A stretch of DNA of 64,000 nucleotides, taken from NCBI RefSeq assembly GCF_000826655.1, contig NZ_JXJO01000001.1, positions 62,001-126,000 on the forward strand, written 5' to 3'. The stretch comes from Psychroserpens damuponensis (GTDB taxonomy: Bacteria > Bacteroidota > Bacteroidia > Flavobacteriales > Flavobacteriaceae). A model generated the notes under the pieces. It saw nothing but the letters and a program-made list of their open reading frames with translations. It was not told the origin of the DNA and searched no databases. The position numbers and the translations under genes were made by a program. This document shows, piece after piece, positions 1,485 through 64,000 of this stretch. The stretch's first letter is position 1; the number at the start of each line of letters is the position of its first letter.

Positions 1485-2168
1485 ATGAAGGTATATGCAA
1501 CTATACTTTTGTTAGGTTGTATGTTTTTAGCGTTCCCTCAACAGCCAAAAACCTACTTTGATTCACAAATCGCCCGACATTTAAAAGCTTATAATGTGAA
1601 ATCTGAAATCGCTATGCTAAATGGTGATAAAGAGCAAGCTAAATTTCTGTTTGATTCTCTTTTTGAAAATCATTTGAAGGATAGTTATATTAGGGATATT
1701 TCTCTTAACAAAGTGAAAGGAGGCACTTTAAAAACAGCTTCAATTGACAATCCTTTTCTTCTAATCACCAAATCGTCTTGGGAAATAATTAAAGATGAGG
1801 AAATAGCTGAAATTAATAGAATGTCAAAGTTGTACAAAGGACAGCTTGAAATCATTATTTTATTTTGGGATTCTAAAGACAAAGCTAAACAACTATCTAA
1901 AAACTACAACTCGAACGTTACAGTTACGTATATAGATGAGCGCAAAAATAAGGCTAGCCATATTATCAAACCATTTAAACATTCATTTGGAGCACCTGCG
2001 TGTTTTTATTTTTCCGAAGAAAAACAACTTTTAAAAATTGATAAAAAGTTTACAATTTCAAATGTAGATCACACAGCTGAAGTTGCATTTGATGCGATTC
2101 ATGAAAAAATCAAACGGATACTTTTTGGTGATGAACCAGATAAAAATGGAATTATAACAACGCTGTAA
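1485..2168 (+). CDS. Exported thioredoxin-fold-like protein without CxxC
   Basis: The 227-residue protein starts with a short hydrophobic signal (LLLGCMFLAFPQQ). The segment PFLLITKSSWEII, followed by a strand-like EIIILFWDS and later FGAPACFYF, has the layout of a TlpA/thioredoxin fold: strand, turn at the N-terminus of a helix, then a cis-Pro-like loop. The position where a CxxC would sit reads SSWE, so it should lack disulfide redox activity. A cysteine in the signal region could instead be a lipid-modified residue. The gene has its own candidate promoter and converges on the cardiolipin synthase gene with only four bases between stops. The fold assignment is inference. Confidence 0.55.
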   Translation: MKVYATILLLGCMFLAFPQQPKTYFDSQIARHLKAYNVKSEIAMLNGDKEQAKFLFDSLFENHLKDSYIRDISLNKVKGGTLKTASIDNPFLLITKSSWEIIKDEEIAEINRMSKLYKGQLEIIILFWDSKDKAKQLSKNYNSNVTVTYIDERKNKASHIIKPFKHSFGAPACFYFSEEKQLLKIDKKFTISNVDHTAEVAFDAIHEKIKRILFGDEPDKNGIITTL

Positions 2169-2172
2169 CACT

Positions 2173-5844: not shown

Positions 5845-7176
5845 TTAAATAGTATGGGCTTTTTGAAAATTAAATCTAACCAATCCATCTTCATCAATTT
5901 TGGTAAGTTTAACAGCTTGAAGTGTATTCACTAATTCTGGATCCCAAGGTGTTTTTACCTTGACATAATTCTCAGTAAATCCATGAATATATCCTTCTTT
6001 ATTCTCGCTTTCAAAGAGCACTGTTCTTGAGCTTTCTAATTGGCTCTCATAAAATGCTCTTCTTTTTTTTACTGAAAGTCCTCGTAACATTTTACTACGT
6101 TTGGCTCTTACTTTTTTAGGTACAACACCATCAAGAGTAGCTGCGACAGTATTGTCACGCTCAGAATATGTAAATACATGCAAATAGGAGATATCCAACT
6201 CATTTAAAAAGTTATAAGTTTCTAAAAACAACTCATCGGTTTCTCCCGGAAAACCAACAATTACATCTACACCAATACAAGCGTGTGGCATAACTTCTTT
6301 AATTTTATGTACACGATCTACATATAATTCTTTCATATAACGACGACGCATTAGCTTTAACATCTCATTGGTTCCACTTTGTAAAGGAATATGGAAATGA
6401 GGCACAAAAGCGTCACTTTTAGACACAAAGTCTATCGTTTCATTTTTCAATAGGTTTGGCTCAATAGATGAGATTCGTAAACGCTCTATACCGTTAACTT
6501 TATCTAAAGCTTGCACAAGTTCATAAAATGTGTGTTCATGCTTTTTGTTGCCGAATTCACCTTTTCCGTAGTCACCAATATTGACGCCTGTAAGCACAAT
6601 CTCTTTAATATTTTTTGCTGAAATTGCTCTTGCATTCTCCAAAACATTCTCTAAAGTATCACTTCTAGAAATACCTCGCGCTAAAGGAATTGTACAATAG
6701 GTACATTTATAATCACATCCATCTTGTACTTTTAAAAAGGCACGTGTACGATCTCCAATGGAGTAGCTTCCAACATAAAAATCGGCATCTTCTATTTCAC
6801 AACTATGTATTTCTCCCAAATCATTTTTTGAAAGATCATTGAGGTAGTCTGTAATTTTAAATTTTTCGGTTGCTCCCAAAACTAGATCCACACCATCAAC
6901 ATCTGCTAATTCTTGAGGTTTTAATTGCGCATAGCACCCAATTGCTGTCACAAACGCTTCAGGGTTTACCTTTTGCGCTTGTTTAACGATTGATTTAAAA
7001 CGCTTGTCTGCATTTTCGGTAACAGAGCACGTATTAATCACATAAATGTCTGCTTTTTCCTTAAAGTCCACACGATCAAAACCTTCCGAAGAAAAATTTC
7101 GTGCAATCGTAGAAGTTTCGGAGAAATTGAGCTTACAACCCAATGTATAAAATGCAACGGTTTTTTTTGAGTTCAT
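5845..7176 (-). CDS. mtaB: tRNA t6A37 methylthiotransferase MtaB
   Basis: A radical-SAM enzyme of 443 residues that adds a methylthio group to N6-threonylcarbamoyladenosine-37 of tRNAs. The N-terminal methylthiotransferase domain shows the three cluster cysteines (TLGCKLNFSE, NTCSVTENAD, AIGCYAQ). The radical-SAM motif is GCDYKCTYCTIPLARG, with CxxxCxxC. The C-terminal part is a TRAM-like domain. TLGCKLN and the length distinguish MtaB from MiaB and RimO. A -7 box (TAAATTTG, minus strand, 7197-7204) lies about 20 bases before the ATG. One copy of the octamer falls in codons for S-E (7084-7091). Confidence 0.95.
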   Translation of the reverse strand: MNSKKTVAFYTLGCKLNFSETSTIARNFSSEGFDRVDFKEKADIYVINTCSVTENADKRFKSIVKQAQKVNPEAFVTAIGCYAQLKPQELADVDGVDLVLGATEKFKITDYLNDLSKNDLGEIHSCEIEDADFYVGSYSIGDRTRAFLKVQDGCDYKCTYCTIPLARGISRSDTLENVLENARAISAKNIKEIVLTGVNIGDYGKGEFGNKKHEHTFYELVQALDKVNGIERLRISSIEPNLLKNETIDFVSKSDAFVPHFHIPLQSGTNEMLKLMRRRYMKELYVDRVHKIKEVMPHACIGVDVIVGFPGETDELFLETYNFLNELDISYLHVFTYSERDNTVAATLDGVVPKKVRAKRSKMLRGLSVKKRRAFYESQLESSRTVLFESENKEGYIHGFTENYVKVKTPWDPELVNTLQAVKLTKIDEDGLVRFNFQKAHTI

Positions 7177-11452: not shown

Positions 11453-13066
11453 ATGCTCCATAATTATAAATACATATTAATATCACTTTTGACTTTCATT
11501 TTCTTGTCCTGCGGAAATGAAACAACAACACCAACTGATCATCTTGTTTTTAGATATAACGAACATAAAAACATAGGCTCATTAGATCCTGCCTTTGCAA
11601 AAGACAATGCAGATAATTGGGCCATCAATCAACTTTTTAATGGCTTGGTGCAAATGGATGAAAATCTCAATGTACAACCATGTATTGCAAAAGATTGGAC
11701 CATTTCACAAGACGCACTCACCTACTCTTTTTCATTACGCGATGATGTCAAGTTTCATAAACATATACGCTTCGGAAATGACTCTACTAGAACAGTTGTT
11801 GCTTCAGATTTTGTATACAGTCTCAACCGTTTATTAGACAAAAAATTAGCATCTCCTGGACGATGGACACTCAACAAAGTAGACACCTTTAAAGCTGTTA
11901 ACGACACCTTGTTTCAAGTCACATTAAAACAACCCTTTCCTGCATTTCTAGGTTTATTAACTATGAAGTATTGCTCAGTAGTGCCAAAAGAAATTGTGGA
12001 GCATTATAATTCAGACTTTAGATCAAACCCAATTGGCACAGGACCATTTAAATTTAAACGATGGGAAGAAAATTTAAAGCTCGTTTTCCGAAGACATGAT
12101 GAGTATTTTGAAATTGATACTCATGGCAAGCAATTACCATATCTAGAAGCTGTTGCTATTACATTTTTACCAGACAAGCAGAGTGAATTTTTACAATTTG
12201 CACAAGGCAATATAGATTTTGTATCTGGCTTAGACGCCTCGTACAAAGATGAGATTTTAACGGCTACAGGATCGCTGCGTGACAGTTATGCTAAAGATGT
12301 AAAAATGATAAGAGGTCCTTATCTAAACACAGAGTATTTAGCTTTTTTTATGGATTCTGAAGTTTCAGAAATGCAATCACAAATCTTACGTCAAGCTATT
12401 AATTACGGCTTTGACAAGCAAAAAATGATGACCTATTTACGTAACGGTATTGGGATTGCTGCGCATGGAGGTTTTATTCCAAAGGGATTACCAGGCTACA
12501 ACGCATCTATAGGTTTTGCATTTGAGCCAGAAAAAGCCAAACAACTTGTAAAGCAATTTAAACAAGAAACGGGAATTTCAAATCCTGAAATTACAATCAC
12601 TACAACCAGTAATTATTTAAGTTTTTGTGAGTACATACAACGAGAGCTTCAAAAAATTGGCATTGTTGTTAATGTTGATGTTATACCTGCAGCCACTTTA
12701 AAAGATGCTAAAGCTAATGGTAAATTAAACATGTTTAGAGCAAGTTGGGTTGCAGATTATCCAGATGCAGAAAACTACTTGTCATTATTTTCTAGTAAAA
12801 ATTTCGCGCCTAATGGTCCAAATTATACACATTTCCGAAGTGAACAATTTGATGCTTGGTATCAAGAAGCATTTACAATCACCGATACAAAGCAACGTGA
12901 GGCACTTTATACAAAAATGGATAGTTTAGTCATGTCACAAACTCCTATTGTGCCTTTATTTTATGATGAAGTGGTACGCTTTACACGAAAAAATGTTAAT
13001 GGTTTGGGCATCAACCCAATTAATATGCTGGATTTAAAACGTGTTAAAAAATCTAGTCTAAAGTAA
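11453..13066 (+). CDS. Peptide-type solute-binding lipoprotein (SBP family 5)
   Basis: A 537-residue extracytoplasmic binding protein of the DppA/OppA family. The signal peptide ends in a lipobox (FIFLSCGNE), so the mature protein is lipid-anchored at Cys. Family hallmarks include LDPAFAKDNADNWAINQLFNGLVQ near the start, VASDFVYSLNRLLD, NPIGTGPFKFKRW in the middle and ASWVADYPDAENYL near the end. It probably binds oligopeptides or a similar ligand and delivers it to the two proteins encoded upstream; no DppB/C-type permease genes are in the window. Its 3' end overlaps the convergent PD40 gene by 14 bases. Three octamer copies fall inside it. Confidence 0.9.
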   Translation: MLHNYKYILISLLTFIFLSCGNETTTPTDHLVFRYNEHKNIGSLDPAFAKDNADNWAINQLFNGLVQMDENLNVQPCIAKDWTISQDALTYSFSLRDDVKFHKHIRFGNDSTRTVVASDFVYSLNRLLDKKLASPGRWTLNKVDTFKAVNDTLFQVTLKQPFPAFLGLLTMKYCSVVPKEIVEHYNSDFRSNPIGTGPFKFKRWEENLKLVFRRHDEYFEIDTHGKQLPYLEAVAITFLPDKQSEFLQFAQGNIDFVSGLDASYKDEILTATGSLRDSYAKDVKMIRGPYLNTEYLAFFMDSEVSEMQSQILRQAINYGFDKQKMMTYLRNGIGIAAHGGFIPKGLPGYNASIGFAFEPEKAKQLVKQFKQETGISNPEITITTTSNYLSFCEYIQRELQKIGIVVNVDVIPAATLKDAKANGKLNMFRASWVADYPDAENYLSLFSSKNFAPNGPNYTHFRSEQFDAWYQEAFTITDTKQREALYTKMDSLVMSQTPIVPLFYDEVVRFTRKNVNGLGINPINMLDLKRVKKSSLK

Positions 13067-15590: not shown

Positions 15591-15719
15591 AGTAATTTTT
15601 GTAAATTACCAATAAATTATTTTCTTTTTTTAATTCTATTTTATTCCGAAGAAAATTGTAACATTTCAAAACAAATATATACTAACCAAACATATTAACT
15701 AATTAATCAACTAAAATTT

Positions 15720-16293: not shown

Positions 16294-17241
16294 ATGAATA
16301 TATCAGTAGTCATACCACTACTTAACGAACAAGAATCAATAACAGAATTACACGATTGGATTGCAAAAGTCATGCAGTCCAATCGTTTTTCATATGAAAT
16401 CATTTTTATTGATGATGGTAGTACCGATGATTCTTGGGCAACCATAATGACATTATCTCAAAAAAACGAGAGTGTTAAAGGCATTCGTTTTCTTAAAAAC
16501 TTCGGAAAATCACAAGCCTTACACGCAGGATTTGCAAAGGCAGAAGGTGATGTTATCATTACTATGGATGCAGATTTGCAAGATAATCCAGAAGAAATCC
16601 CAGAACTCTACAACATGATTGTTATAGATAAGTTTGACCTCGTCTCTGGATGGAAAAAGAAACGCTACGATTCTGTCCTTTCTAAAAACTTACCTTCAAA
16701 ACTATTTAATTGGGCAGCACGACGAACTTCTGGTGTTACATTGAATGATTTTAATTGCGGACTAAAAGCCTACAGTAACAACGTTGTTAAGAATATTGAT
16801 GTTAATGGAGAAATGCATCGCTATATTCCTGTGCTTGCCAAAAATGCAGGATTTACTAAAATTGGTGAAAAAGTAGTGCTACATCAAGCTAGAAAATATG
16901 GTGAAACTAAATTTGGAATGGATCGTTTTATCAATGGATTTCTTGATTTAATTACCATTTGGTTTTTATCACGCTTCGGAAAACGGCCAATGCACCTTTT
17001 TGGTGCTTTAGGCGTATTTATGTTTGCTATCGGCTTTGTATTTGCGATGTATTTAGGTATTGATAAATTAATTCTAAATCAAACTGGCCGACTCATTACT
17101 GAGCGTCCTCAATTTTATATCGCATTAACTACCATGATTTTAGGATCTCAGTTTTTTGTAGCAGGATTTTTAGGCGAACTTATTTTACGTTCTAAACGCA
17201 ATAGCAGTCGCTATTTAATCAAACAAGAACTTAATTTTTAA
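16294..17241 (+). CDS. Family 2 glycosyltransferase, DPM1/GtrB-like
   Basis: A 315-residue enzyme that probably transfers a sugar to a polyprenyl phosphate carrier at the inner membrane. The GT-A domain shows NISVVIPLLNEQESI, IDDGSTDDS and the DAD motif in TMDADLQDNPEEIPEL. The region QARKYGETKFG is typical of the dolichyl-phosphate mannose synthase group. Two C-terminal membrane helices (about residues 230-255 and 275-300) anchor it, as in GtrB and ArnC-like enzymes. The sugar cannot be inferred. Two octamer copies lie in codons for N-F-G-K and R-F-G-K. Confidence 0.9.
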   Translation: MNISVVIPLLNEQESITELHDWIAKVMQSNRFSYEIIFIDDGSTDDSWATIMTLSQKNESVKGIRFLKNFGKSQALHAGFAKAEGDVIITMDADLQDNPEEIPELYNMIVIDKFDLVSGWKKKRYDSVLSKNLPSKLFNWAARRTSGVTLNDFNCGLKAYSNNVVKNIDVNGEMHRYIPVLAKNAGFTKIGEKVVLHQARKYGETKFGMDRFINGFLDLITIWFLSRFGKRPMHLFGALGVFMFAIGFVFAMYLGIDKLILNQTGRLITERPQFYIALTTMILGSQFFVAGFLGELILRSKRNSSRYLIKQELNF

Positions 17242-20906: not shown

Positions 20907-20946
20907 ATAGATATTTCCGAAGTAAAATAAAACCATATTTAAATAT

Positions 20947-21764: not shown

Positions 21765-22280
21765 TTGAGTCTTATACATATGAAACAAAAAAAATTAGAC
21801 GATATCAACACTTCAGGATTTAAAGTGCCTAAAGATTACTTTTCACAAGTTGAAGAGCAAATACTTAGTGACACACCTTTAAAAAACAAGGTTGAGCACT
21901 CTGGTTTTGATATTCCAGATTCTTATTTTGACACTTTAGAAGAACGCATCTTTGAATCATTAGATACAACACAAGACACAAAAGTTATTCCTCTTATTAA
22001 TTGGAAAAAAGTAATCTATGGTTCTGCTATAGCTGCTTCATTAGTATTAATGTTTAATGTTTTTTATAATGCTTCGGAAGAATTAACGTTTGACTCGCTT
22101 GACCTTGCTTCTATTGAAGATTATATAGCCGATGAAAATTTTACCAGTTATGAATTATCTCAGCTTTTAACTTATGAAGAGCTTAGTAATGACAATTTTT
22201 TAGAATCAGAAATCACCCAAGATCAATTAAAAGACTATTTATTAAATAGTTCTAATATTGAAGATCTTATTATAGAATAA
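21765..22280 (+). CDS. Putative anti-sigma factor, single-pass membrane protein
   Basis: A 171-residue protein placed 15 bases after the sigma factor. A better start may be the ATG at 21780 (MKQKKLDD). The N-terminal 80 residues contain two copies of a motif: SGFKVPKDYFSQVEEQI and SGFDIPDSYFDTLEERI. One membrane helix follows (about residues 86-104), then an acidic tail ending ...SNIEDLIIE. Cytoplasmic repeats plus one helix plus a periplasmic tail is a plausible anti-sigma layout, but no known anti-sigma domain is recognisable. The role is inferred from position. Confidence 0.7.
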   Translation: MSLIHMKQKKLDDINTSGFKVPKDYFSQVEEQILSDTPLKNKVEHSGFDIPDSYFDTLEERIFESLDTTQDTKVIPLINWKKVIYGSAIAASLVLMFNVFYNASEELTFDSLDLASIEDYIADENFTSYELSQLLTYEELSNDNFLESEITQDQLKDYLLNSSNIEDLIIE

Positions 22281-48131: not shown

Positions 48132-49598
48132 TTAAATCCCACTTATATAACTTCCGTAAGGATCTTTAAATTGAATCCCTTCAGTAAAACGATATTTACT
48201 TAATTGCTTATATTCTACTAAAGCCCAAAGCACAAATTCTTTAACGAAATAACTATCTTCTTTAGACAGTTTAGGTTGGTATTCGCCTAATAAATCATCT
48301 AAAGGTGATACGCTATCTAACATCGATTTATACTCCTTATCTCTCAAATCATCTAAGATTTCAAAACCTTCTTGTTGATTAAAAAACCAAGATATAATAT
48401 CATCATAAGGTGTTTCATCGGTATCTTTTTTTAATTTTTCTATCTTCGGAAAAAATTCTGGAAACAAGCTTTTAACTGCTTCACCAATTAAATTAAAAGC
48501 CACCATAGCTGCGCCTTCTTGCTCACCTTCATAAACCAATTCTACTTTACCCGTAATTGACGGAATGATTCCAACAAAATCACTCAAACGCACCATTGTA
48601 TGAGAATCACCTGAGGTTAACGCACGACGCTCTGCCGTACTTAATAGATTCTCTAAAGCAGTAATACTTAATCGTGCACTTACACCACTTTTTTCATCTA
48701 TATATTCACTATCTCTTGCTTCAAATACAATTTGTTCTAATACATCTCTAGCTAAATCAGGAACTGAAACCGTCTCTTTTTGACTTTCAACAAATTTTGC
48801 TTCTTGCTCTGTTATTAATCGTGCCGTTTCAATATCTGTTGGGTAATGTGTTAAAATTTGGCTTCCAATTCTGTCTTTTAAAGGTGTTACAATACTTCCT
48901 CTATTGGTATAATCTTCAGGATTTGCTGTAAAAATAAACTGAACATCCAAAGGCAATCTTAATTTAAAGCCGCGAATTTGAATATCACCTTCTTGCAAAA
49001 TATTAAATAAAGCCACTTGTATTCTAGCTTGTAAGTCTGGTAACTCATTAATTACAAAAATGCAACGATTGGCTCTAGGGATCATTCCGTAGTGAATCAC
49101 ACGATCATCGGCATAACTCAATTTTAAATTTGCTGCTTTTATTGGGTCTACATCACCAATTAAATCTGCCACTGTAACATCTGGAGTTGCTAGTTTTTCA
49201 GCAAAACGATCATGTCTATGTAGCCACGTTATTGGAGTCTCATCACCTTTTTGGGTAATTAACTCCATGGCAAAACGAGATATAGGATTTAAAGGATCGT
49301 CATTAATTTCAGAACCGTCAACCACAGGAATGTAATCATCCAACAAATTCAACATTAATCGTGCTAACCGTGTTTTTGCTTGTCCGCGAAGTCCTAATAA
49401 ATTAATATTATGTCTTGATAAAATCGCACGTTCTAATTCTGGTATTACAGTATTTTCATAACCGTGCACACCTTCAAAAGCTGTTTGTTTGTTCTTTAAC
49501 TTTTCTATCAAATTATCACGCAATTCATCTTTTATAGATTTTGATTGATAACCTGATGCTTTTAGTTCGCCTAAAGTATTTATGTTTTCTATTTTCAT
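48132..49598 (-). CDS. MoxR/Mg-chelatase-type AAA+ ATPase
   Basis: A 488-residue AAA+ ATPase. Walker A is GLRGQAKTRLARL, Walker B is CIFVINELPDL and sensor motifs follow (FIFTANPEDYTNRGSIVTPLKDRIG). Such proteins are often labelled magnesium chelatase subunits, but no tetrapyrrole genes are near, and it pairs with a VWA-domain protein encoded just upstream. This MoxR/VWA arrangement usually acts as a chaperone or assembly motor for another complex. The client is unknown here. Confidence 0.85.
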   Translation of the reverse strand: MKIENINTLGELKASGYQSKSIKDELRDNLIEKLKNKQTAFEGVHGYENTVIPELERAILSRHNINLLGLRGQAKTRLARLMLNLLDDYIPVVDGSEINDDPLNPISRFAMELITQKGDETPITWLHRHDRFAEKLATPDVTVADLIGDVDPIKAANLKLSYADDRVIHYGMIPRANRCIFVINELPDLQARIQVALFNILQEGDIQIRGFKLRLPLDVQFIFTANPEDYTNRGSIVTPLKDRIGSQILTHYPTDIETARLITEQEAKFVESQKETVSVPDLARDVLEQIVFEARDSEYIDEKSGVSARLSITALENLLSTAERRALTSGDSHTMVRLSDFVGIIPSITGKVELVYEGEQEGAAMVAFNLIGEAVKSLFPEFFPKIEKLKKDTDETPYDDIISWFFNQQEGFEILDDLRDKEYKSMLDSVSPLDDLLGEYQPKLSKEDSYFVKEFVLWALVEYKQLSKYRFTEGIQFKDPYGSYISGI

Positions 49599-49703: not shown

Positions 49704-50831
49704 TTACCCTTTAATTCTTTTCTTTCTATTGGTCTCATAATCCTCAAAAATCATTTCACCCAAGCCTTTTAAACCTGTATAAAACGCTTTTCCTTGATTT
49801 GCTCTAGTAAACTCGTCTACAAATTGCATCAAATAACGATCTTGTGCAATCATAAACGTTGTAATTGGTATATGTAATTTTCTGGCTTGCTGCGCCATCG
49901 CATAGCATTTATTGGTGATGTATGGATTGAGACCATTACTATCTTTATAATATTGACCATCTGGCAGCTTTAAGCAACTAGGTTTACCATCGGTAATCAT
50001 AAAAATTTGCTTGTTAGTATTACGCTTTCGTCTTAGTAAATCCATTGCTAATTGTAATCCTGCAACGGTATTGGTATGATAAGGTCCAACTTTAAGATAT
50101 GGTAAATCTTTGATTTCTATTTGCCAAGAGTCATTTCCGAAGACAATAATATCTAAAGTATCTTTTGGGTAACGTGTGGTAATCAATTCGGCCAAGGCCA
50201 TCGCTACTCGCTTAGCTGGAGTGATACGATCTTCTCCATACAAAATCATGCTGTGGCTAATATCTATCATAAGTACAGTACTCATTTGAGATTTGTGCAG
50301 CGTTTCTTCAACCACCAAATCATCTTCAGTTAGGCTAAAATCGCCAATACCATGATTTATTTGTGCGTTTCGTAAACTTTCGGTCATCGAGACCTTATCT
50401 AAGGCATCACCAAATTGGTAGTTTCTAAAATCTCCTGTATGTTCATCTCCAAGACCAACGCCTTTACTTTTATGATTGCCTTGACCGCTTCGTTTAATTT
50501 TTCCGAAGATATGCTCTAAGGCTTGTTGCCGAATTGCGCGTTCGGTTTTTGCAGTAATTGCCATGGCTCCATTACCATCGGGATCAATGTCTTCTTTGAT
50601 GTAACCTTTCTTTTTAAGATCTTCTATAAAATCGTCAATGGTATACTCAGACGTTGTTAATTCGTATTCTTTATCTAATTCTCGAAGCCAAGAAATAGCT
50701 TCGTCAAAATCACCTGAAGTGTGAGTAATTAATTCTTTGAAAATCTCAAAAAGCTTTTCAAAAGGAGATTGATTTGGAGCTTCATAAGGTTTAAAAACAA
50801 ACCCTTTTTTAAAATTATTTTGTTTTGTCAT
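49704..50831 (-). CDS. VWA-domain protein, partner of MoxR-type ATPase
   Basis: A 375-residue protein with a C-terminal von Willebrand A domain. The metal-ion site is complete: DISHS (DxSxS) at its first strand, the Thr in YHTNTVAGL and the Asp in MITDGKPS. The N-terminal 170 residues are charged and helical. I start it at 50831 (MTKQNNFKK) because the upstream MYFYTA extension has no support. It is encoded before the ATPase gene on the same strand, with the pyrimidine-rich repeat between them. Two octamer copies (50135, 50501) lie in codons for F-G-N and F-G-K. Confidence 0.86.
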   Translation of the reverse strand: MTKQNNFKKGFVFKPYEAPNQSPFEKLFEIFKELITHTSGDFDEAISWLRELDKEYELTTSEYTIDDFIEDLKKKGYIKEDIDPDGNGAMAITAKTERAIRQQALEHIFGKIKRSGQGNHKSKGVGLGDEHTGDFRNYQFGDALDKVSMTESLRNAQINHGIGDFSLTEDDLVVEETLHKSQMSTVLMIDISHSMILYGEDRITPAKRVAMALAELITTRYPKDTLDIIVFGNDSWQIEIKDLPYLKVGPYHTNTVAGLQLAMDLLRRKRNTNKQIFMITDGKPSCLKLPDGQYYKDSNGLNPYITNKCYAMAQQARKLHIPITTFMIAQDRYLMQFVDEFTRANQGKAFYTGLKGLGEMIFEDYETNRKKRIKG

Positions 50832-51669: not shown

Positions 51670-54042
51670 ATGGAACAAACTATTTGTTTCCACTGTGGTG
51701 ATGATTGTAACTCTACAATTATTGCCTATGATGAAAAAAACTTCTGCTGTAATGGCTGCAAGACTGTTTATGAGATTTTCTCAGAAAATGACTTAACATG
51801 TTATTATGATTTGCAGGCTTCTCCAGGTACAATCCCTAAAGAAATTGAGGGTAAATATGATTTTTTATCGCAAGATAATATCATTGAAAAACTAACTGAA
51901 TTTAACGATGGAAACACGCAAATCGCAACCTTATACATTCCGCACATACATTGTAGCTCTTGTATATGGATTTTAGAAAACCTCAACAAATTAAATCCAA
52001 ACATATCATCGTCTCAAGTTAATTTTGGTAAAAAGAACGTGAGAGTCACGTACAACTCTCAAACGACATCGCTCAAAGCCGTTGTTTTATTATTAAGCTC
52101 AATAGGTTATGAACCTTATATTTCTTTAGACGATTATAAAACTGGACAGCAAAACGTTAATAGAAATCTAATTTACAAATTAGGAATTGCCGGTTTTGCC
52201 TTTGGTAATGTCATGTTTTTATCGTTTCCTGAATATTTTCAAGTGGGAGAATATTGGCTAGAACAATACAAACATTTATTTCGTTGGTTGATGTTTGTAT
52301 TCTCAATACCTGTAGTTTTTTATGCTGGAGCCGATTATTTCATCTCTGCATTTAAAGGGCTGCGTTCAAAACTTTTAAATATTGATGTGCCTATTGCTTT
52401 AGGAATTTCAGTGTTGTTTATTAGAAGTACCATCGAAATTATTTTTGATCTTGGTTCTGGTTTTTTTGATAGCTTAACAGGGCTCGTATTCTTTTTACTA
52501 TTAGGTAAATTTTTCCAGCAAAAAACGTACTCCTTTTTATCTTTTGAGCGCGATTACAAATCCTATTTCCCAATTGCGGTTACTAAAATATCTTCGGAAA
52601 TTGGCGAGCACCCAATACAAGTCTATGATATTAAAAAAGGAGACCGACTTCTCATTAGAAACGAAGAACTCATTCCTGTTGATGGCATTCTCATTAACGG
52701 AAATGCACGAATAGACTACAGTTTTGTCACAGGAGAGTCTGATAGTGTGAGTAAACAATCTGGCGACAAACTCTTTGCTGGTGGCAAGCAAACCTCTGGA
52801 GTTATTGAAATGGAAGCCATTAAATCTGTTGAACAAAGTTACCTCACACAACTTTGGAGTAACGATATTTTTAGCAAAAATAAAGACGATGGTTTTACAA
52901 ACTTAACCAATAGAATAAGCAAAAAATTTACAATTATCATACTTAGCATAGCAGTAATTGCTACTTTATTTTGGCTATTTGTAAATCCCTCAAAAGCAAT
53001 GAATGTATTCACAGCAGTGTTGATTATTGCCTGTCCTTGCGCAATTGCACTCTCTGCTCCCTTTACCTTTGGTAATTTGCTTCGTATCTTCGGAAAATTA
53101 AAATTTTACGTCAAAAACGCTGCAGTTATAGAACAATTAGCTGCTATAAACACTATAATTTTTGACAAAACCGGAACCATAACGTCTAACAAAAAAAGCA
53201 CAGCACAATACGATGGGTTGGCTTTAAGCCCTTCCGAAGAACTATTACTTAAAAACACGCTTCGTGGTTCTAACCATCCATTAAGTAGAACGCTTTATGA
53301 TATTTTAGATGAAAATAATATCATTTCTCTCAATCATTTTGAAGAACACTTAGGTCAAGGTATTGAGGCCAACCATAATGATAATTATATCAAAATTGGC
53401 TCAGCAAGTTTTGTTGGCGCAAAAGAGCATTCAATACTAAATACGCAAGTTCATATTAGTACAAATAATGAATATAAAGGTAAATACACGTTTTATAACA
53501 GCTATAGAAAAGGACTATCTAAACTCTTTAATGTATTAAAAACGCAGTACGATTTAGTGATCCTGTCGGGTGACAATGCAGGTGAACTAGAGAACCTCAA
53601 AAAAATATTACCTTCTAAAACTAAACTCATCTTTAATCAAAAACCAGATGACAAATTAGAATATATAAAATACCATCAAACAGAAGGTGCAAAAGTTTTA
53701 ATGATTGGTGATGGACTCAATGACGCTGGAGCATTAGCTCAAAGTAATGTAGGGATTGCCTTATCTGAAAACGTGAACGTATTCTCACCTGCTTGTGATG
53801 CTATTTTAGATGCTTCAAAATTTAACCAACTCAACAAATTTATAGGTGCATCTAAAAGCGCGATTAAGATTATAAAATGGAGTTTTGTACTATCATTTTT
53901 TTACAATGTAATTGGACTTTACTTTGCTGTAACAGGACAATTAGCACCTGTAATTGCAGCTATATTAATGCCATTGAGTTCAATTAGCATCGTGGTATTT
54001 ACAACGATTGCTACAAATCTTTTAGGTCGAAAATTAAAATAA
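51670..54042 (+). CDS. ccoI: Copper-type P1B ATPase, CcoI-like
   Basis: A 790-residue heavy-metal P-type ATPase that would supply copper for cbb3 oxidase assembly. The N-terminus has a cysteine-rich zinc-ribbon-like part (CFHCGDDCNS, FCCNGCKTVYE) and an HMA-like segment with HCSSC. Core motifs are complete: CPC (IIACPCAIALS), DKTGT, the HP motif (GSNHPLS) and GDGLNDAGAL. The extra N-terminal cysteine domain and the position before ccoS-ccoNO identify it as CcoI/FixI rather than a general CopA. It probably has its own Fnr-dependent promoter. Confidence 0.93.
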   Translation: MEQTICFHCGDDCNSTIIAYDEKNFCCNGCKTVYEIFSENDLTCYYDLQASPGTIPKEIEGKYDFLSQDNIIEKLTEFNDGNTQIATLYIPHIHCSSCIWILENLNKLNPNISSSQVNFGKKNVRVTYNSQTTSLKAVVLLLSSIGYEPYISLDDYKTGQQNVNRNLIYKLGIAGFAFGNVMFLSFPEYFQVGEYWLEQYKHLFRWLMFVFSIPVVFYAGADYFISAFKGLRSKLLNIDVPIALGISVLFIRSTIEIIFDLGSGFFDSLTGLVFFLLLGKFFQQKTYSFLSFERDYKSYFPIAVTKISSEIGEHPIQVYDIKKGDRLLIRNEELIPVDGILINGNARIDYSFVTGESDSVSKQSGDKLFAGGKQTSGVIEMEAIKSVEQSYLTQLWSNDIFSKNKDDGFTNLTNRISKKFTIIILSIAVIATLFWLFVNPSKAMNVFTAVLIIACPCAIALSAPFTFGNLLRIFGKLKFYVKNAAVIEQLAAINTIIFDKTGTITSNKKSTAQYDGLALSPSEELLLKNTLRGSNHPLSRTLYDILDENNIISLNHFEEHLGQGIEANHNDNYIKIGSASFVGAKEHSILNTQVHISTNNEYKGKYTFYNSYRKGLSKLFNVLKTQYDLVILSGDNAGELENLKKILPSKTKLIFNQKPDDKLEYIKYHQTEGAKVLMIGDGLNDAGALAQSNVGIALSENVNVFSPACDAILDASKFNQLNKFIGASKSAIKIIKWSFVLSFFYNVIGLYFAVTGQLAPVIAAILMPLSSISIVVFTTIATNLLGRKLK

Positions 54043-54069: not shown

Positions 54070-54077
54070 TTCCGAAG
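54070..54077 (-). repeat. Intergenic octamer copy next to the ccoS operator
   Basis: An exact TTCCGAAG on the + strand, 33 bases before the Fnr-type dyad, in DNA with no other function visible. It is one of three copies outside genes. Confidence 0.7.
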
Positions 54078-54361: not shown

Positions 54362-56563
54362 ATGGAAGTTCAACAGTTTCATTACGATAACAAAATCGTT
54401 AAAAATTTTCTTTATGCAACCATGTTTTGGGGAGTAATAGGTATGTCGGTAGGTTTACTACTTGCATTCTTGTTTATTTTTCCAGAGATGCCATTGATTA
54501 AAAATGTATCATGGTTAAGTTTTGGTCGTTTAAGACCTTTACATACCAACGCTGTTATTTTTGCCTTTGTTGGTAATGCCATTTTTGCAGGTGTATATTA
54601 TTCTACACAACGTTTGTTAAAAGCAAGAATGTTTAACGATACGCTAAGTAAAATTAATTTTTGGGGCTGGCAGTTAATTATTGTGGCTGCTGCTATTACA
54701 TTACCTCTGGGTTACACATCATCAAAAGAATATGCCGAATTAGAGTGGCCTATTGACATTGCTATTGCTGTAATTTGGGTTGTTTTTGGATGGAATTTAA
54801 TTGGCACCTTATTAAAACGACGTCAACGTCATTTATATGTGGCTATTTGGTTTTATTTAGCAACTTTTGTGACCGTTGCCGTACTTCATATTTTTAATAG
54901 TTTATCATTACCTGTTTCTATTACTGGTATGAAAAGTTATTCGGTATACGCAGGTGTACAAGATGCTTTAGTACAATGGTGGTATGGACATAATGCGGTT
55001 GCATTTTTCTTAACAACACCATTTTTAGGTTTAATGTACTACTTTGTGCCTAAAGCTGCAAATAGACCAGTCTACTCTTACAGACTTTCAATTGTTCACT
55101 TTTGGTCATTAATATTTATATACATTTGGGCTGGACCTCACCACCTACTTTATACAGCGCTACCAGGATGGGCTCAAAACCTCGGTGTTGCCTTTTCAAT
55201 TATGTTATTAATGCCGTCTTGGGGAGGAATGATAAACGGTTTATTGACATTACGTGGTGCTTGGGATAAAGTACGTACAGATCCTGTTTTAAAATTCATG
55301 GTTGTGGCCATTACAGGTTACGGTATGGCGACTTTTGAAGGCCCTATGCTATCTCTTAAAAGTGTAAATGCAATGGCGCATTTTACTGATTGGATTATTG
55401 CTCATGTGCACGTTGGTGCATTAGCATGGAATGGCTTTTTAACCTTCGGAATGATTTACTACCTAGTACCAAAATTATTTAAAACAAAAATGCATTCTAT
55501 TGGTTTAGCAAATCTTCACTTTTGGATTGGCACTTTAGGAATCATTTTTTATGCTTTACCTATGTATGTCGCAGGATTTACACAATGGGCAATGTGGAAA
55601 CAGTTTAATCCAGATGGTACCTTAGTATACGGTAATTTCTTAGAAACAGTAACTGCAATCATGCCATTATATTGGATGCGTGCCATTGGTGGAACGTTAT
55701 TTATCACTGGTATGATAATCATGATTATTAATGTCATTATCACTATTAAAAAAGGTAGTAAAGTTACAGATGAATTGGCAGAAGCTCCTGCACTTCAACG
55801 TGTATCAAAAAGACGTGTTGCTGGTGAAGGATGGCACACTTGGTTAGAACGTAAACCTGTTAAATTAACTATTTATGCAACTATCGCTATTTTAATTGGT
55901 GGTGTTGTACAAATCGTACCGACCTTATTAGTTAAATCTAATATTCCAACAATTACAAGTGTTAAACCTTACACGCCTTTAGAACTCGAAGGGAGAGATA
56001 TTTATATTAGAGAAGGTTGTGTTGGTTGTCACTCACAAATGGTGAGACCTTTTAGAAATGAAGTAGAGCGTTATGGAGAATATTCTAAAGCTGGAGAATA
56101 TGTTTACGATCATCCATTCCTTTGGGGAAGTAAACGTACTGGACCAGATTTACATCGTGTAGGTGGTAAATATTCAGATAATTGGCACTTAAACCATATG
56201 TACGATCCACAAAGTACTTCTTCTGGTTCTATTATGCCATCATATCAATGGTTAGTAAGAAATGAGCTCGATAAAACTCAAACCGAAGCTAAAATGAAAG
56301 TCATGGTTTCACTTGGTGTGCCTTATACAGATGAAGAGATTGCGAATGCACAACAATCTATGAATGAACAAGGAACTCAAATTGAAAAAAACCTATATAC
56401 AGATCCTGATTTTGCATCAACATATGAAGCAGATAAAAAAGCAGGTGGTGATGCTTTCATTGAGATGAGAAATAGAGAAATAGTCGCAGTCATTGCTTAT
56501 TTACAACGTCTTGGAACAGATATTAAGGTAAAAGATGAAGAGGTAACAACAACTCAAAACTAA
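54362..56563 (+). CDS. ccoNO: Fused cbb3 cytochrome oxidase subunits I and II (CcoN-CcoO)
   Basis: A 733-residue fusion. Residues 1-480 are the catalytic heme-copper subunit CcoN with about twelve to fourteen membrane helices and the expected histidines (RPLHTNAVIF, WYGHNAVAFFLTTP, WAGPHHLLYTALPGW, WIIAHVHVGALAWNG). After a linker rich in charged residues, residues 505-733 are the monoheme subunit CcoO: one membrane helix, then GCVGCHSQMVRPF with the heme-c motif CxxCH, then GPDLHRVGGKYSD and MPSYQWL. The fusion of CcoN and CcoO is usual in Bacteroidota. The enzyme reduces oxygen at low concentration and pumps protons. Confidence 0.95.
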   Translation: MEVQQFHYDNKIVKNFLYATMFWGVIGMSVGLLLAFLFIFPEMPLIKNVSWLSFGRLRPLHTNAVIFAFVGNAIFAGVYYSTQRLLKARMFNDTLSKINFWGWQLIIVAAAITLPLGYTSSKEYAELEWPIDIAIAVIWVVFGWNLIGTLLKRRQRHLYVAIWFYLATFVTVAVLHIFNSLSLPVSITGMKSYSVYAGVQDALVQWWYGHNAVAFFLTTPFLGLMYYFVPKAANRPVYSYRLSIVHFWSLIFIYIWAGPHHLLYTALPGWAQNLGVAFSIMLLMPSWGGMINGLLTLRGAWDKVRTDPVLKFMVVAITGYGMATFEGPMLSLKSVNAMAHFTDWIIAHVHVGALAWNGFLTFGMIYYLVPKLFKTKMHSIGLANLHFWIGTLGIIFYALPMYVAGFTQWAMWKQFNPDGTLVYGNFLETVTAIMPLYWMRAIGGTLFITGMIIMIINVIITIKKGSKVTDELAEAPALQRVSKRRVAGEGWHTWLERKPVKLTIYATIAILIGGVVQIVPTLLVKSNIPTITSVKPYTPLELEGRDIYIREGCVGCHSQMVRPFRNEVERYGEYSKAGEYVYDHPFLWGSKRTGPDLHRVGGKYSDNWHLNHMYDPQSTSSGSIMPSYQWLVRNELDKTQTEAKMKVMVSLGVPYTDEEIANAQQSMNEQGTQIEKNLYTDPDFASTYEADKKAGGDAFIEMRNREIVAVIAYLQRLGTDIKVKDEEVTTTQN

Positions 56564-59683: not shown

Positions 59684-60385
59684 ATGCTCTGGTCTGCACT
59701 TTTATTTGGTCTATTAGGAAGTTTCCACTGTGTAGGTATGTGTGGACCAATCGCTTTTATGCTGCCAGTAGATAGATCTAACTCTTTAAAAAAAATACTA
59801 CAAATTTTTTCTTATCACTTCGGAAGACTACTTGCCTACTTCATCATAGGTTTTGTTTTCGGTTTAGTTGGTAAAAGTTTATATCTCTTCGGTATACAGC
59901 AACAACTCTCTATTGTAATCGGTATATTAATGATTGTAGTAGTTCTAATTCCTGTAAAAACCTTTAACAAATATAACCTCTCAAAACCGTTGTACAGGCT
60001 CATTTCCGTAGTAAAATCAAAATTAGGAAAAGCGCTTAAAAAGAAAACTGCCGATACATTTTTAACCATTGGTTTTCTAAATGGTTTTCTCCCTTGCGGA
60101 TTGGTTTACATGGCTGTTTTTGCCTCTTTAACCATGCAAAATGCTGCTTATGGTGGTCTGTACATGATACTTTTTGGTTTAGGCACTATTCCTTTAATGA
60201 CTACTGCTATATATCTAGGTAAATTTTTAAATTCTACGATAAAACAACGTATTCAAAAAGCCATTCCTGTGTTTGTTGTCATTATTGGACTCTTATTCAT
60301 TATTCGTGGTATGGGCTTAGGGATCCCTTACCTCTCTCCTGCTCCCATTATAGATGTAGCAACTAGCACCATTGATTGTCATTAA
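59684..60385 (+). CDS. SafE/TauE-like membrane protein of the cco cluster
   Basis: A 233-residue protein with six or so membrane helices. LFGLLGSFHCVGMCGPIAFMLP, with the CxxxC pair, and FLNGFLPCGLVYMAVFASL are the signatures of the sulfite-exporter/DsbD-like transmembrane family next to cco genes. It probably moves copper or reducing power for oxidase maturation; that is inference from position. The start lies nine bases after ccoH. An octamer copy lies in codons for H-F-G-R. Confidence 0.87.
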   Translation: MLWSALLFGLLGSFHCVGMCGPIAFMLPVDRSNSLKKILQIFSYHFGRLLAYFIIGFVFGLVGKSLYLFGIQQQLSIVIGILMIVVVLIPVKTFNKYNLSKPLYRLISVVKSKLGKALKKKTADTFLTIGFLNGFLPCGLVYMAVFASLTMQNAAYGGLYMILFGLGTIPLMTTAIYLGKFLNSTIKQRIQKAIPVFVVIIGLLFIIRGMGLGIPYLSPAPIIDVATSTIDCH

Positions 60386-61795: not shown

Positions 61796-61815
61796 AAGCA
61801 ATCAAACCAAAACAA

Positions 61816-64000
61816 ATGAAAAAATCACTTTTCCTGATGCTTTTTTTAGCATCAATCACTCTTGTTGCCCAAGACATCCCACTTAACGTTTTAAAAAACA
61901 TGATACCTCGTAATATTGGTCCTGGCGGAATGTCTGGTCGTGTTACTGCTATTGATGTTGTTTTAAACAATACAGATATTATGTACGTAGGTACTGCTTC
62001 TGGTGGACTTTGGAAAAGTGAATCTGGAGGTGTAACGTGGTCTCCAATTTTTGATAATGAAGTCACAGCTTCTATTGGAGCTGTAGCTATACAGCAATCA
62101 AACCCTAGTGTAATTTGGGTTGGTACAGGAGAAGGAAATCCTAGAAATAGTTTAAATGGTGGTTATGGTATTTTTAAATCTTTAGATGGAGGAAAAAGCT
62201 GGACCTCAATGGGATTAGAAAATACGAGACATATACATCGTGTGATTATTGATCCAACAAATCCAGATGTCGTGTATGTTGGTGCCATCGGTTCACCTTG
62301 GGGAGAACATCCAGAACGTGGCGTTTTTAAAACTACAGATGGTGGTAAAACATGGAACAAAATTCTATTTGCTAACAACAAAACAGGAGTTGCAGATTTG
62401 GTTATGGATCCAACAAACCCTAATAAACTAATAGCTGCCATGTGGGAACACAAACGTGACCCTTGGTTTTTTAATTCTGGTGGTAAAGGTTCGGGATTAC
62501 ATATCACTCATGATGGCGGAAAAACATGGAAAAAAATCACTGATAAAGAAGGTTTTCCAAAAGGAGATCTCGGTCGTATTGGTGTTGCCATAGCTCCAAA
62601 CAAACCAAATATCATTTATGCACTAGTTGAAGCTAAAAAAAATGCACTTTATAAAAGTGAAGATGGCGGATTTAAGTGGCACAAAGTAAATGATAAATCT
62701 AGTGGTAGAGGTTCTGGTGGTATAGGAAATAGACCTTTTTACTACTCTGAAATTTATGTAGATCCACAAAATGAAAATCGGGTTTACTCAGTATTCACCT
62801 ATATTAACGTTTCCGAAGATGGTGGAAAAAACTTCAAACAACTCATGCCAGCTTATGGTGTAGACAATGGTGTACATCCAGATCATCATGCATGGTGGAT
62901 CCATCCAAAAAATGGTAATTTCATGATTGATGGTAATGATGGTGGTATGAACATCACTAAAGATGGTGGAAAAACCTGGCGTTTTATTGGCAATCTACCT
63001 GTGGCTCAATTTTATCATATCAATGTAGATAATGAAATCCCATACAATGTGTATGGTGGTATGCAAGATAATGGTTCTTGGAGAGGTCCTGCTTATGTTT
63101 GGAGAACTCAGGGTATTCGCAATAGTTATTGGCAAGAAATTAGTTTTGGAGATGGTTTTGATGTCGTGCCAGATAAAGATGATTCTCGTTACGGTTGGAC
63201 CATGAGCCAACAAGGGTATGTAAGTAGATACGATTGGCAAACGGGAAATAATTTCTCTGTAAAACCAACACATCCAGACCCTGAAGTTGAACTCCGGTTT
63301 AATTGGAACTCTGCAATTAATATAGATCCTTTTGATAATAATACGTTGTACTTCGGAAGTCAATTTGTACATAAATCTACAGACAAAGGAGACACATGGA
63401 CGGTGATTTCACCCGATCTAACAACCAACGATCCTGAAAAACAGAAACAATCTGAAAGTGGTGGCCTTACTATGGATGCTACTGGAGCCGAAAATCACAC
63501 CACTATTTTAGTGATTGAACCTTCTCCATTAGAAAAAGATATGCTTTGGGTAGGAACAGATGATGGTAAAGTACATTACACCTTAAATGGAGGAAATTCG
63601 TGGACAGATATCACAAAAGGTCTTAAAGATTTACCTGCTGGAAGCTGGATAACTCAAATTAAAGCCTCCAACAAAAATAAAGGAGAAGCTCTATTAGTGG
63701 CTAATGATTATAGACGATTTAACTACACACCTTACGCTTACCGAACTACTAACTACGGAAAAACATGGACGAGAATTGTTGATGCTAATGATGTAGAAAG
63801 CTACACCCTGTCTATAATTGAAGACCCTATTGAGAAAAACTTATTGTTTTTAGGTACAGATGACGGACTTTATTTGTCTTTCAACGCAGGAAACAAATGG
63901 ACAAAATGGACTAACGGTTTCCCTACAGTTTCGGTAAAAGATATGGTGATTCATCCTAGAGAACACGATTTAATTATTGGTACGTTTGGTCGTGCAGCTT
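61816..64000 (+). CDS. VPS10/BNR-type beta-propeller protein, 3' end missing
   Basis: An open frame runs from the ATG at 61816 to the window end (728 codons) without a stop. It has a signal peptide (LFLMLFLASITLVAQ) and many sialidase/Asp-box or VPS10-like blades: SESGGVTWSPI, SLDGGKSWTSM, TTDGGKTWNKI, THDGGKTWKKI, SEDGGFKWHKV, TKDGGKTWRFI, STDKGDTWTVI, TLNGGNSWTDI and NYGKTWTRI. Two linked seven-blade propellers are likely, as in large sortilin-type glycosyl hydrolase-like proteins of Bacteroidota. Substrate unknown. Two octamer copies lie within it. Confidence 0.88.
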   Translation, partial: MKKSLFLMLFLASITLVAQDIPLNVLKNMIPRNIGPGGMSGRVTAIDVVLNNTDIMYVGTASGGLWKSESGGVTWSPIFDNEVTASIGAVAIQQSNPSVIWVGTGEGNPRNSLNGGYGIFKSLDGGKSWTSMGLENTRHIHRVIIDPTNPDVVYVGAIGSPWGEHPERGVFKTTDGGKTWNKILFANNKTGVADLVMDPTNPNKLIAAMWEHKRDPWFFNSGGKGSGLHITHDGGKTWKKITDKEGFPKGDLGRIGVAIAPNKPNIIYALVEAKKNALYKSEDGGFKWHKVNDKSSGRGSGGIGNRPFYYSEIYVDPQNENRVYSVFTYINVSEDGGKNFKQLMPAYGVDNGVHPDHHAWWIHPKNGNFMIDGNDGGMNITKDGGKTWRFIGNLPVAQFYHINVDNEIPYNVYGGMQDNGSWRGPAYVWRTQGIRNSYWQEISFGDGFDVVPDKDDSRYGWTMSQQGYVSRYDWQTGNNFSVKPTHPDPEVELRFNWNSAINIDPFDNNTLYFGSQFVHKSTDKGDTWTVISPDLTTNDPEKQKQSESGGLTMDATGAENHTTILVIEPSPLEKDMLWVGTDDGKVHYTLNGGNSWTDITKGLKDLPAGSWITQIKASNKNKGEALLVANDYRRFNYTPYAYRTTNYGKTWTRIVDANDVESYTLSIIEDPIEKNLLFLGTDDGLYLSFNAGNKWTKWTNGFPTVSVKDMVIHPREHDLIIGTFGRAA

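Follow-up and report, generated by a model that had tools for sequence, protein, structure and literature searches.

The octamer CTTCGGAA in Psychroserpens damuponensis and other Flavobacteriaceae, a candidate uptake-type self-recognition sequence

Why should a single octamer, CTTCGGAA, recur throughout one stretch of flavobacterial DNA? The stretch analysed here (the window) comprises 64 kb from Psychroserpens damuponensis, in which an earlier note had counted at least 36 copies, 20 on the forward and 16 on the reverse strand, where about one was to be expected by chance. Our recount gave the same 36 exact copies (20/16), spanning positions 2012 to 63358 (Table 1), whereas 100 dinucleotide shuffles of the window contained 0.99 copies on average and 4 at most. 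As TTCCGAA/TTCGGAA also totals 36 in the window, C precedes every heptamer, just as the note had stated, and its estimate of about seven palindromic nonamers is matched by seven occurrences of CTTCCGAAG/CTTCGGAAG. The 32 copies within ORFs do fall in five of the six codon register classes, although the intergenic copies, which had been put at three, number four by our ORF calls (15644, 20915, 54070 and 62811).

Table 1. Exact copies of CTTCGGAA in the 64-kb window
Position	Strand	Location	Remarks
2012..2019	-	gene 1485-2168	kept in G006, G014; altered in G005, G010, G001
7084..7091	-	MtaB-like gene 5845-7176 (-)	
11770..11777	+	gene 11453-13066	
12086..12093	-	gene 11453-13066	
12833..12840	-	gene 11453-13066	
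15644..15651	-	intergenic	among aligned relatives kept only in G006, G014
16500..16507	+	gene 16294-17241	kept in 13/21 aligned relatives
16974..16981	+	gene 16294-17241	kept in 1/21 aligned relatives (G011)
17594..17601	+	phosphosugar-mutase-like gene 17338-19068	
18000..18007	-	phosphosugar-mutase-like gene 17338-19068	
20182..20189	+	MsbA-like gene 19068-20906	
20915..20922	-	intergenic	
21493..21500	+	gene 21171-21749	
22072..22079	+	gene 21765-22280	
26632..26639	+	gene 25533-26675	
27897..27904	+	gene 26855-27940	
28138..28145	+	PurL gene 28127-31813	kept in 5/5 aligned relatives
31011..31018	-	PurL gene 28127-31813	
34729..34736	+	gene 33104-34879	
35408..35415	-	gene 35022-35477	
42726..42733	+	gene 41542-42951 (-)	
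43723..43730	-	gene 43422-45005	
46155..46162	+	gene 45013-46182	opposed pair with 46281
46281..46288	-	gene 46189-47520	opposed pair with 46155
47448..47455	+	gene 46189-47520	
48444..48451	+	gene 48132-49598 (-)	
50135..50142	-	gene 49704-50849 (-)	
50501..50508	-	gene 49704-50849 (-)	
52592..52599	+	P-type ATPase gene 51670-54042	
53088..53095	+	P-type ATPase gene 51670-54042	opposed pair with 53232
53232..53239	-	P-type ATPase gene 51670-54042	opposed pair with 53088
54070..54077	-	intergenic	
55444..55451	+	cbb3 oxidase gene 54362-56563	
59818..59825	+	gene 59684-60385	
62811..62818	-	intergenic	
63351..63358	+	ORF 62995-63372 (-)	

Abundance, strand and placement

The whole P. damuponensis genome (G000) contains 1,520 copies, 741 forward and 779 reverse. 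When octamers were ranked by over-representation in a 462-kb sample of this genome, which we used for octamer statistics, CTTCGGAA came first of 29,382 classes with approximately 34 times its trinucleotide expectation. All six codon registers were occupied in the larger samples, i.e. these 462 kb and 420 kb (21 stretches) of G006, a relative with a complete chromosome; the count was thus far from expectation and the word was not confined to a single register, the two outcomes that the earlier note had named as fatal to its proposal. The reversed pattern AAGGCTTC is not dinucleotide-matched to the motif, whose CG it replaces by GC; for this reason trinucleotide Markov expectations were used for the samples, and the reversed pattern was kept solely for ranking genomes. 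With 2,174 copies in the whole genome of G006 and densities of one per 2.6 kb in G000, 1.8 kb in G006 and 1.4 kb in G322, the octamer approaches the abundance of uptake sequences, whose copies are very numerous and lie about a kilobase apart, though it is somewhat sparser than USS or DUS.

Like uptake sequences, the octamer has no orientation bias: to the near-equal totals in G000 can be added the G006 sample, in which 135 of 261 copies lay on one replichore-consistent strand (P=0.62). KOPS/FtsK-type signals are strongly polar toward the terminus, and no such terminus-directed polarity was found in the G006 sample; the earlier note had likewise taken near-equal strand use as an argument against a polar signal such as KOPS or Chi. 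An apparent KOPS-like polarity in G005 was dropped, as its strand totals were 355 and 352 and the plus-strand-only pattern, which recurred for other long contigs, was taken to be an artefact.

In keeping with uptake sequences, copies tend to be modestly denser outside ORFs than within them (0.47 compared with 0.37 per kb in G000, and 0.78 compared with 0.60 in G006, i.e. 1.25- and 1.3-fold by simple ORF calls), and many are coding. At the scale of 20-kb blocks, the regular spacing expected of uptake sequences was not seen in the samples of G000 or G006, whose blocks are over-dispersed (variance 17.3 against a mean of 7.2, and 24.6 against 12.4, respectively), partly owing to low-count blocks. 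Neighbouring copies at most 200 bp apart formed 30 convergent, 13 divergent and 32 same-strand pairs, and within this distance we found no fixed spacing in opposed pairs. A repeat element or terminator was rejected on account of flanks that share nothing beyond a T-run and weak base preferences, and of the variable spacing of the opposed pairs.

Shape and conservation of the site

In its extended form the site is a T-run 5' of CTTCGGAAA. In G000 and G006 this asymmetric run was seen in every register class and also in intergenic copies, where the frequency of T was 0.83 at position -3 and 0.85 at position -2 (n=87), compared with just 0.30–0.53 at position -3 for five one-off octamers. The AT-rich flank typical of USS is therefore present in both genomes; in G057 and G285 only a weak T-run is seen. 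The earlier note had described single-mismatch neighbours as rare, which holds for changes at positions 1, 2, 4, 6 and 8, where counts in the G000 sample are close to background (the largest being 14 against 8.2 and 19 against 13), but not for positions 3, 5 and 7, at which several neighbours are enriched, namely CTACGGAA (41 against 5.8 expected), CTGCGGAA (33 against 3.9) and CTTCGGCA (30 against 3.1). The rule that perfect uptake sequences outnumber singly mismatched ones does not hold, as worded, for raw counts (180 perfect and 373 mismatched in the G000 sample; 261 and 395 in G006), whereas the copies above trinucleotide expectation number 175 and 163 in G000 and 254 and 158 in G006.

The window copies are conserved in relatives beyond the level of control octamers: 19 of 28 alignable copies were intact in G006 and 17 of 30 aligned copies in G014, compared with 13% of control octamers (Fisher's test, P=6e-11 and 3e-8 respectively). 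Synonymous sites behaved likewise, 50 of 60 codons being identical in G006 where 27.7 were expected from the same codons elsewhere. Because the octamer occurs in all registers and in intergenic DNA, is conserved at synonymous positions and carries an asymmetric flank, these data support selection on CTTCGGAA at the DNA level, as the earlier note had proposed.

Distribution and competing explanations

Within the genus Psychroserpens, CTTCGGAA is over-represented in 11 of 23 genomes. Counting a genome as enriched when it had 400 copies or more and reached three times the reversed control or above, we found 32 enriched genomes among 397 sampled Flavobacteriaceae, patchily spread over 20 genera, and none among 135 sampled genomes outside the family. 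Three genomes of genus g11 have 7, 5 and 10 copies. Genome-wide counts are high in G298, G409 and Salinimicrobium, yet the octamer was not top-ranked in their samples (120, 20 and 21 kb respectively). A 38-kb glycosyltransferase cluster is one low-density stretch; further low-density blocks hold type I restriction/SIR2 genes and AcrB/multicopper-oxidase/metal-ATPase genes. All of these were picked for being low, and two others yielded no accessory identity.

Copy excess, strand neutrality, register use, flank, conservation and patchy spread are hallmarks of DNA uptake sequences, and we consider it fairly probable that CTTCGGAA is an uptake-type self-recognition sequence of transformable Flavobacteriaceae lineages. 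We infer that its reader is an uptake receptor on the cell surface, which would bind double-stranded DNA at the asymmetric site and so favour the uptake of kin DNA. Copies would originate by point mutation and, because motif-bearing alleles would be taken up and recombined more often, they would accumulate. Among the titles and abstracts listed for open-licence papers on competence or uptake sequences of flavobacteria, Bacteroidetes and Bacteroidota, and likewise on Chi in Bacteroidetes, none describes the motif; the letters CTTCGGAA themselves gave, among the matches listed, titles on unrelated subjects.

Alternatively, the octamer might be bound throughout the genome by a nucleoid or chromosome-organising protein, or be an unexplained, HIP1-like iterated word; we regard this as unlikely. 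Of 41 blocks of 20 kb sampled from G000 and G006, only one lacks the octamer. In G000, complementary changes (T to A or G, and A to T or C) are tolerated at positions 3 and 7, which lie symmetrically on either side of the central base. This could point to a dimeric reader, but the G/C change is unevenly represented on the two sides in G006 (65 against 7). A site of this kind is difficult to reconcile with an asymmetric word (CTTCCGAA lacking a following G is absent from the G000 sample and was counted 5 times in that of G006), with a T-run on one side only, or with a range of 278 to 2,174 copies within one genus, which is unexpected for an essential site. Cyanobacterial HIP1 is a highly iterated octamer found across genes and a perfect palindrome; CTTCGGAA is similarly iterated and scattered through genes, but both it and its flank are asymmetric. 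Given the uneven copy number within the genus, the patchy occurrence among genera and the presence of accessory loci among the stretches of lowest density, we think that uptake fits better than an architectural role.

A Chi-like recombination signal, i.e. an octamer read on one strand by AddAB/RecBCD at broken ends and protecting self DNA, also appears improbable. Chi shares with CTTCGGAA its length, abundance and non-palindromic form; a Chi-like site would also be rarer in foreign DNA, in keeping with the low counts in some accessory loci, and the spread over several genera would suit it. The best-known Chi, that of E. coli, is however polar and strand-biased along the replichores, in contrast with the even strand use in G006, and we know of no Chi with a T flank 5' of the core. 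The near-absence of the octamer from three genomes of genus g11 argues against such a signal too, as does the size of the excess, approximately 34-fold under our trinucleotide model compared with 2.29-fold for Chi of E. coli K12 under the model given in the available text of PMC3784561. Finally, codon-pair or mutational bias with no selection on the site, for which it may be said that several frequent registers encode common pairs (e.g. S-E and F-G), is already contradicted by the six occupied registers and the intergenic copies, the 34-fold excess, the matched-codon synonymous conservation and a flank that lies outside the codons, and is scarcely credible.

An uptake sequence, our preferred reading, invites comparison with the two established kinds. 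The available text of PMC1626085 describes the USS of Haemophilus and other Pasteurellaceae (Hin and Apl types) as abundant, orientation-free, genic as well as intergenic, present in relatives and made of a strong core with an AT-rich flank, all features shared by CTTCGGAA. In contrast, the candidate CTTCGGAA is unrelated in sequence and phylum, is less dense (one per 2.6 kb in G000), has its AT-rich tract, mostly T, 5' rather than 3' of the core and has no confirmed second type. With the DUS of Neisseriaceae it shares a short asymmetric word, thousands of copies and patchy occurrence in the family, as far as the available text of PMC3630211 goes, but the sequence differs and no dialect of CTTCGGAA was confirmed.

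Candidate reader and related words

Overlapping genes in G000 encode a CarboxypepD_reg/Plug protein (926 amino acids) and a DUF5689 protein (493 amino acids), and on the grounds of literature and domain architecture we propose this outer-membrane pair as a candidate reader. To our knowledge, uptake that favours self DNA is well documented mainly for Neisseriaceae and Pasteurellaceae, two families that both use type IV pili, and the DUS receptor ComP is itself a type IV pilin. In contrast, Riemerella anatipestifer transforms with no pilus homologues detected, and an adjacent gene pair of the G000 layout is essential for its transformation, according to the available text of PMC8459023; its literature places Riemerella in Flavobacteriaceae (PMC8459023 and PMC7965970, as available). 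The gene set of Riemerella is also found in Flavobacterium johnsoniae, which nevertheless showed no competence under the conditions used (PMC8459023, same text). R. columbina favours its own DNA, for which the available text of PMC7965970 leaves the cause open, and its k-mers as ranked there by raw count are A/T-dominated words only.

The presence of competence-type genes was rejected as a cause of motif richness: among 30 motif-rich and 30 motif-poor genomes, DUF5689 was found in 59 and HHH_3 in all 60, and near-universal genes fail to explain the difference. The genome without a DUF5689 match, G345, is motif-rich. It is a more tentative proposal that CTTCGGAA is the first uptake sequence of Bacteroidota and is read not by a type IV pilin but by a TonB-receptor-like/DUF5689 outer-membrane complex; if this is true, the complex would found a new class of DNA receptors with sequence specificity. 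Flavobacteriaceae are major ocean heterotrophs. With such a motif, uptake specificity can be tested directly and the receptor assayed for, and the motif may serve to mark genetic exchange in marine genomes from uncultured organisms.

Uptake sequences can have dialects in related lineages; two words were considered as such here, and neither was confirmed. CTTCAGCA was the top-ranked octamer in 60 kb of G144 (genus g119), but it failed the flank test, as its 23 copies lack the T-run (T at position -3 0.43, background 0.33), whereas six copies of CTTCGGAA in the same sample do carry it (0.83). CTTCRGCA reaches 8–9 times its control in g119, the median of 35 genomes being 3.6 times, and is equally dense in G285. 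In 160 kb of G010 the leading octamer was CTTCGGCA, yet CTTCRGCA reaches no more than 2.4 times its control in that genome. In addition, within a contiguous subset of 51 genomes, CTTCAGAA was commoner in the seven motif-rich genomes (P=9e-5), with a weak rank correlation with the motif (0.29), a co-enrichment that is possibly a codon effect.

Abundance and placement of the octamer

The earlier note had counted at least 36 copies of CTTCGGAA in the window, 20 on the forward strand and 16 on the reverse, where about one was expected by chance. This was borne out, as dinucleotide shuffles of the 64 kb averaged 0.99 copies and CTTCGGAA was the top over-represented octamer there. The whole P. damuponensis genome (G000, 3.95 Mb), in which the window spans C1:62001-126000, contains 741 forward and 779 reverse copies, and the octamer read backwards 103 and 72. 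The proposed ranking of octamers against a Markov model was carried out on 462 kb of this genome (the window plus 20 further stretches), with CTTCGGAA placed first of 29,382 classes at 180 copies versus 5.3 expected under a trinucleotide model. Other octamers in excess in this sample were GATGCCGA (31 versus 2.9) and CTTGGGGA (23 versus 2.2). Samples ranged from 15 to 480 kb for much of the present work, with one genome per species; ORFs were called mechanically, and several genome tallies were read off tables by eye.

Within the 462 kb, 146 of the 180 copies lay inside ORFs of at least 100 codons, with densities of 0.37 per kb inside and 0.47 outside; the claim of many codon registers and intergenic copies thus stands, and indeed extends to all six registers. 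In 420 kb of the relative G006, whose chromosome is one 3.84-Mb contig, 215 of 261 copies were inside ORFs (0.60 per kb, versus 0.78 outside). Near-equal strand use also persisted when origin and terminus were considered, since 135 of these 261 copies, from 21 stretches, lay on one replichore-consistent strand (P=0.62); the halves were set by position and GC-skew sign, which was weakly opposite in stretches L126 and L158. Neighbours no more than 200 bp apart were convergent in 30 cases, divergent in 13 and on the same strand in 32, and no fixed spacing between them was seen.

Density was uneven, with no copies across 38 kb of contig C1 of G000 (161,738-199,849; L093-L094). Seven proteins of this block were scanned and six gave matches, which were to glycosyltransferases, to an MBOAT acyltransferase and to an ATP-grasp protein; the block is a glycosyltransferase-rich and probably polysaccharide cluster. 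Two blocks of G006, each with two copies in 20 kb, encode in one case a type I restriction system and a SIR2 protein, and in the other AcrB, a multicopper oxidase, a glutamate-synthase-like protein, an amino-acid permease and a metal P-type ATPase; for two more low blocks of G000 (L100 and L101) a clear accessory identity was not found. All these blocks were selected for being low, so that what they encode serves as illustration and not as a test. The stretch L126 (G006:C1:1-20000) also contained 14 copies of CGGTGGCTC and nine of CAGGGCAGG in its 20 kb, which may reflect an internally repetitive gene.

Anatomy and conservation of the site

Single-mismatch neighbours had been described as rare, which proved correct in G000 at octamer positions 1, 2, 4, 6 and 8 (C, T, C, G and A), where changed forms were at or near background (the largest 14 versus 8.2 and 19 versus 13), but not at positions 3, 5 and 7, where change was tolerated. 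The enriched forms were CTACGGAA (41 observed versus 5.8 expected), CTGCGGAA (33 versus 3.9), CTTCGGCA (30 versus 3.1), CTTCGGTA (27 versus 5.3) and CTTCAGAA (48 versus 20). The excess of CTTCCGAA (35) was CTTCGGAAG read on the opposite strand; copies lacking the G numbered 0 in G000 and five in G006, and the site is therefore asymmetric.

Perfect copies from G000 and G006 yielded a profile with a run of T 5′ of the core (T at -3 in 0.72 and 0.74, at -6 in 0.63 and 0.61 respectively) and an A 3′ of it (0.68 and 0.67). Because this T-run was present in each codon-register class with at least 10 copies, was clearest between genes (87 copies, with T at -3 in 0.83 and at -2 in 0.85) and was absent or weaker around the single-change octamers CTTCAGAA, CTTCTGAA, CTTTGGAA, TTTCGGAA and ATTCGGAA (T at -3 0.30-0.53; the exception was 0.60 at -2 of CTTCTGAA), we read the recognition site as exceeding eight bases and the T-run as no codon effect. 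Elsewhere, T at -3 was 0.66 in G322, 0.65 in a pooled set, 0.60 in G298 (15 copies), 0.52 in G285 and 0.41 in G057, against a background of ~0.3.

The window was aligned to stretches of relatives that were 78-81% identical. Perfect copies were retained in 19/28 cases in G006, 17/30 in G014, 7/13 in G018 and 11/34 in G005, and in 6/30 in each of the motif-poorer G010 and G001; the corresponding values for control octamers (four G/C including CG) were 13.1, 13.1, 11.8, 10.2, 8.7 and 9.4%. Fifteen further relatives, aligned across 6-10 kb only, retained 0-4 of 6-9 copies. Among codons with the third base in the motif and an unchanged amino acid, with the expectation taken from the same codons elsewhere, identical codons numbered 50/60 in G006 (27.7 expected), 46/64 in G014 (27.3), 50/73 in G005 (33.7), 36/61 in G010 (26.2) and 32/56 in G001 (26.7). 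Fisher P values, on pooled and not codon-matched codons, were 5e-5 for G006 and 0.05 for G014, and not significant for G005, G010 and G001. On the proposed check for conservation, synonymous sites included, conservation beyond protein constraint is clear in G006, the richest relative, likely in G014 and weak in the poorer relatives.

Spread among relatives and other enriched words

Across the genus (23 genomes), copy number ranged from 278 to 2,174, and 11 genomes passed our richness cut of at least 400 copies and at least three times the reversed control. A locus of Psychroserpens jangbogonensis (L010) lies in a genome whose four counts (140/138/88/91) equal those of G020, a genus mate of the window, and the nearest named matches are Flavobacteriaceae, which agrees with the genus being Psychroserpens. 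The range of copy numbers makes an architectural protein's site a less likely reading of CTTCGGAA, as such sites would be expected to be kept genus-wide, yet copy number drops nearly eight-fold between species. Of the 397 family genomes sampled, 32, spanning 20 genera, passed; outside the family, none of 135 did in an order-wide sample of 158, the top being ~2.9-fold in family f5. Within the contiguous block G057-G107, 37 of the 44 genomes failing the cut were below their own control. Richest among the 34 genomes behind named loci were Flavobacteriaceae SS_bin_56 (1,555 in 2.8 Mb) and Salinimicrobium marinum (1,132), followed by Altibacter (951) and isolate EAC59 (769). Of 30 sample sets, 12 had CTTCGGAA as the top-ranked octamer (G000, G006, G014, G005, G018, G322, G285, G057, G084, G120, Altibacter and SS_bin_56), although G298 (120 kb), G409 (20 kb) and Salinimicrobium (21 kb), which are rich by whole-genome count, did not. 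In three genomes of genus g11, each of 3.0-3.3 Mb (G032, G286 and G437), CTTCGGAA was near-absent at 7, 5 and 10 copies, well below the reversed control, and avoidance is possible there.

Across 60 kb sampled from G144 (genus g119; L263-L265) the first octamer was CTTCAGCA (23 versus 2.4), with CTTCAGTA and CTTCAGGA also enriched, and in the two g119 genomes CTTCRGCA stood at 8.4 and 9.4 times control (1,074 and 1,423 copies). A g119 dialect, suspected in CTTCAGCA/CTTCRGCA, found no clear support: the median of 35 genomes was 3.6-fold, density in G285 was equal, and the CTTCAGCA copies of G144 lacked the T-run that six sampled CTTCGGAA copies there carried. In 65 kb of G019 (L122-L125), ACAACGTGT occurred 40 times versus 0.35 expected, alongside ACGTGTATA and ACGAACACG, perhaps as a local repeat array. 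CTGCAGAA, with palindromic CTGCAG inside it and perhaps no relation to CTTCGGAA, was second in enrichment (33 versus 6.7) in Polaribacter and Tenacibaculum loci (L057, L060, L068, L072, L081 and L083). Loci titled as Bifidobacterium breve (L041), Sphingobacterium thalpophilum (L034) and Chryseobacterium gleum (L045) MAGs held genes 66-69% identical to a G000 query protein, and the first title, at least, looks wrong.

Likeness to uptake sequences and candidate machinery

A Chi-like site, although possible, fits poorly with the lack of strand bias and with a ~34-fold over-representation under our trinucleotide model, compared with 2.29-fold for Chi in E. coli K12 under the source's own model (PMC3784561). 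Our leading reading is a DNA uptake sequence. Features described for the USS and DUS include a density near one copy per kb, the absence of orientation bias, a non-exclusive preference for non-coding DNA, an excess in related species as well, some opposed pairs, a very strong consensus, AT-rich flanks (USS) and somewhat regular spacing (Redfield et al., PMC1626085), and the DUS has eight dialects sharing an invariant core (Frye et al., PMC3630211). Five of these features are shared by CTTCGGAA, whereas regular spacing failed at the 20-kb scale; consensus strength, opposed pairs and dialects pointed neither way.

Riemerella anatipestifer, for which pilus homologues are reported as not detected, requires for transformation ComEC, DprA, ComF and RecA, together with four proteins that have no known counterparts; two of the four are encoded side by side, a CarboxypepD_reg protein of the outer membrane and a DUF5689 protein proposed as DNA binder (PMC8459023). 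G000 has a pair of the same layout, its genes overlapping by 20 bases; the likeness is one of architecture and not proven orthology.

Candidate transformation pair of G000
Feature	Position	Strand	Basis
CarboxypepD_reg protein; Plug below cut-off	C11:15631-18411 (L243)	+	domain match
DUF5689 protein	C11:18392-19873 (L243)	+	domain match

Of 60 genomes, motif-rich and motif-poor alike, 59 had DUF5689 and all 60 had HHH_3, and Flavobacterium johnsoniae is described as having the Riemerella gene set with competence not shown (PMC8459023). Motif richness would therefore have to reflect receptor specificity or transformation frequency, and not whether these genes are present. Just upstream of the G000 pair, on the opposite strand, lies an endonuclease/exonuclease/phosphatase-family gene.
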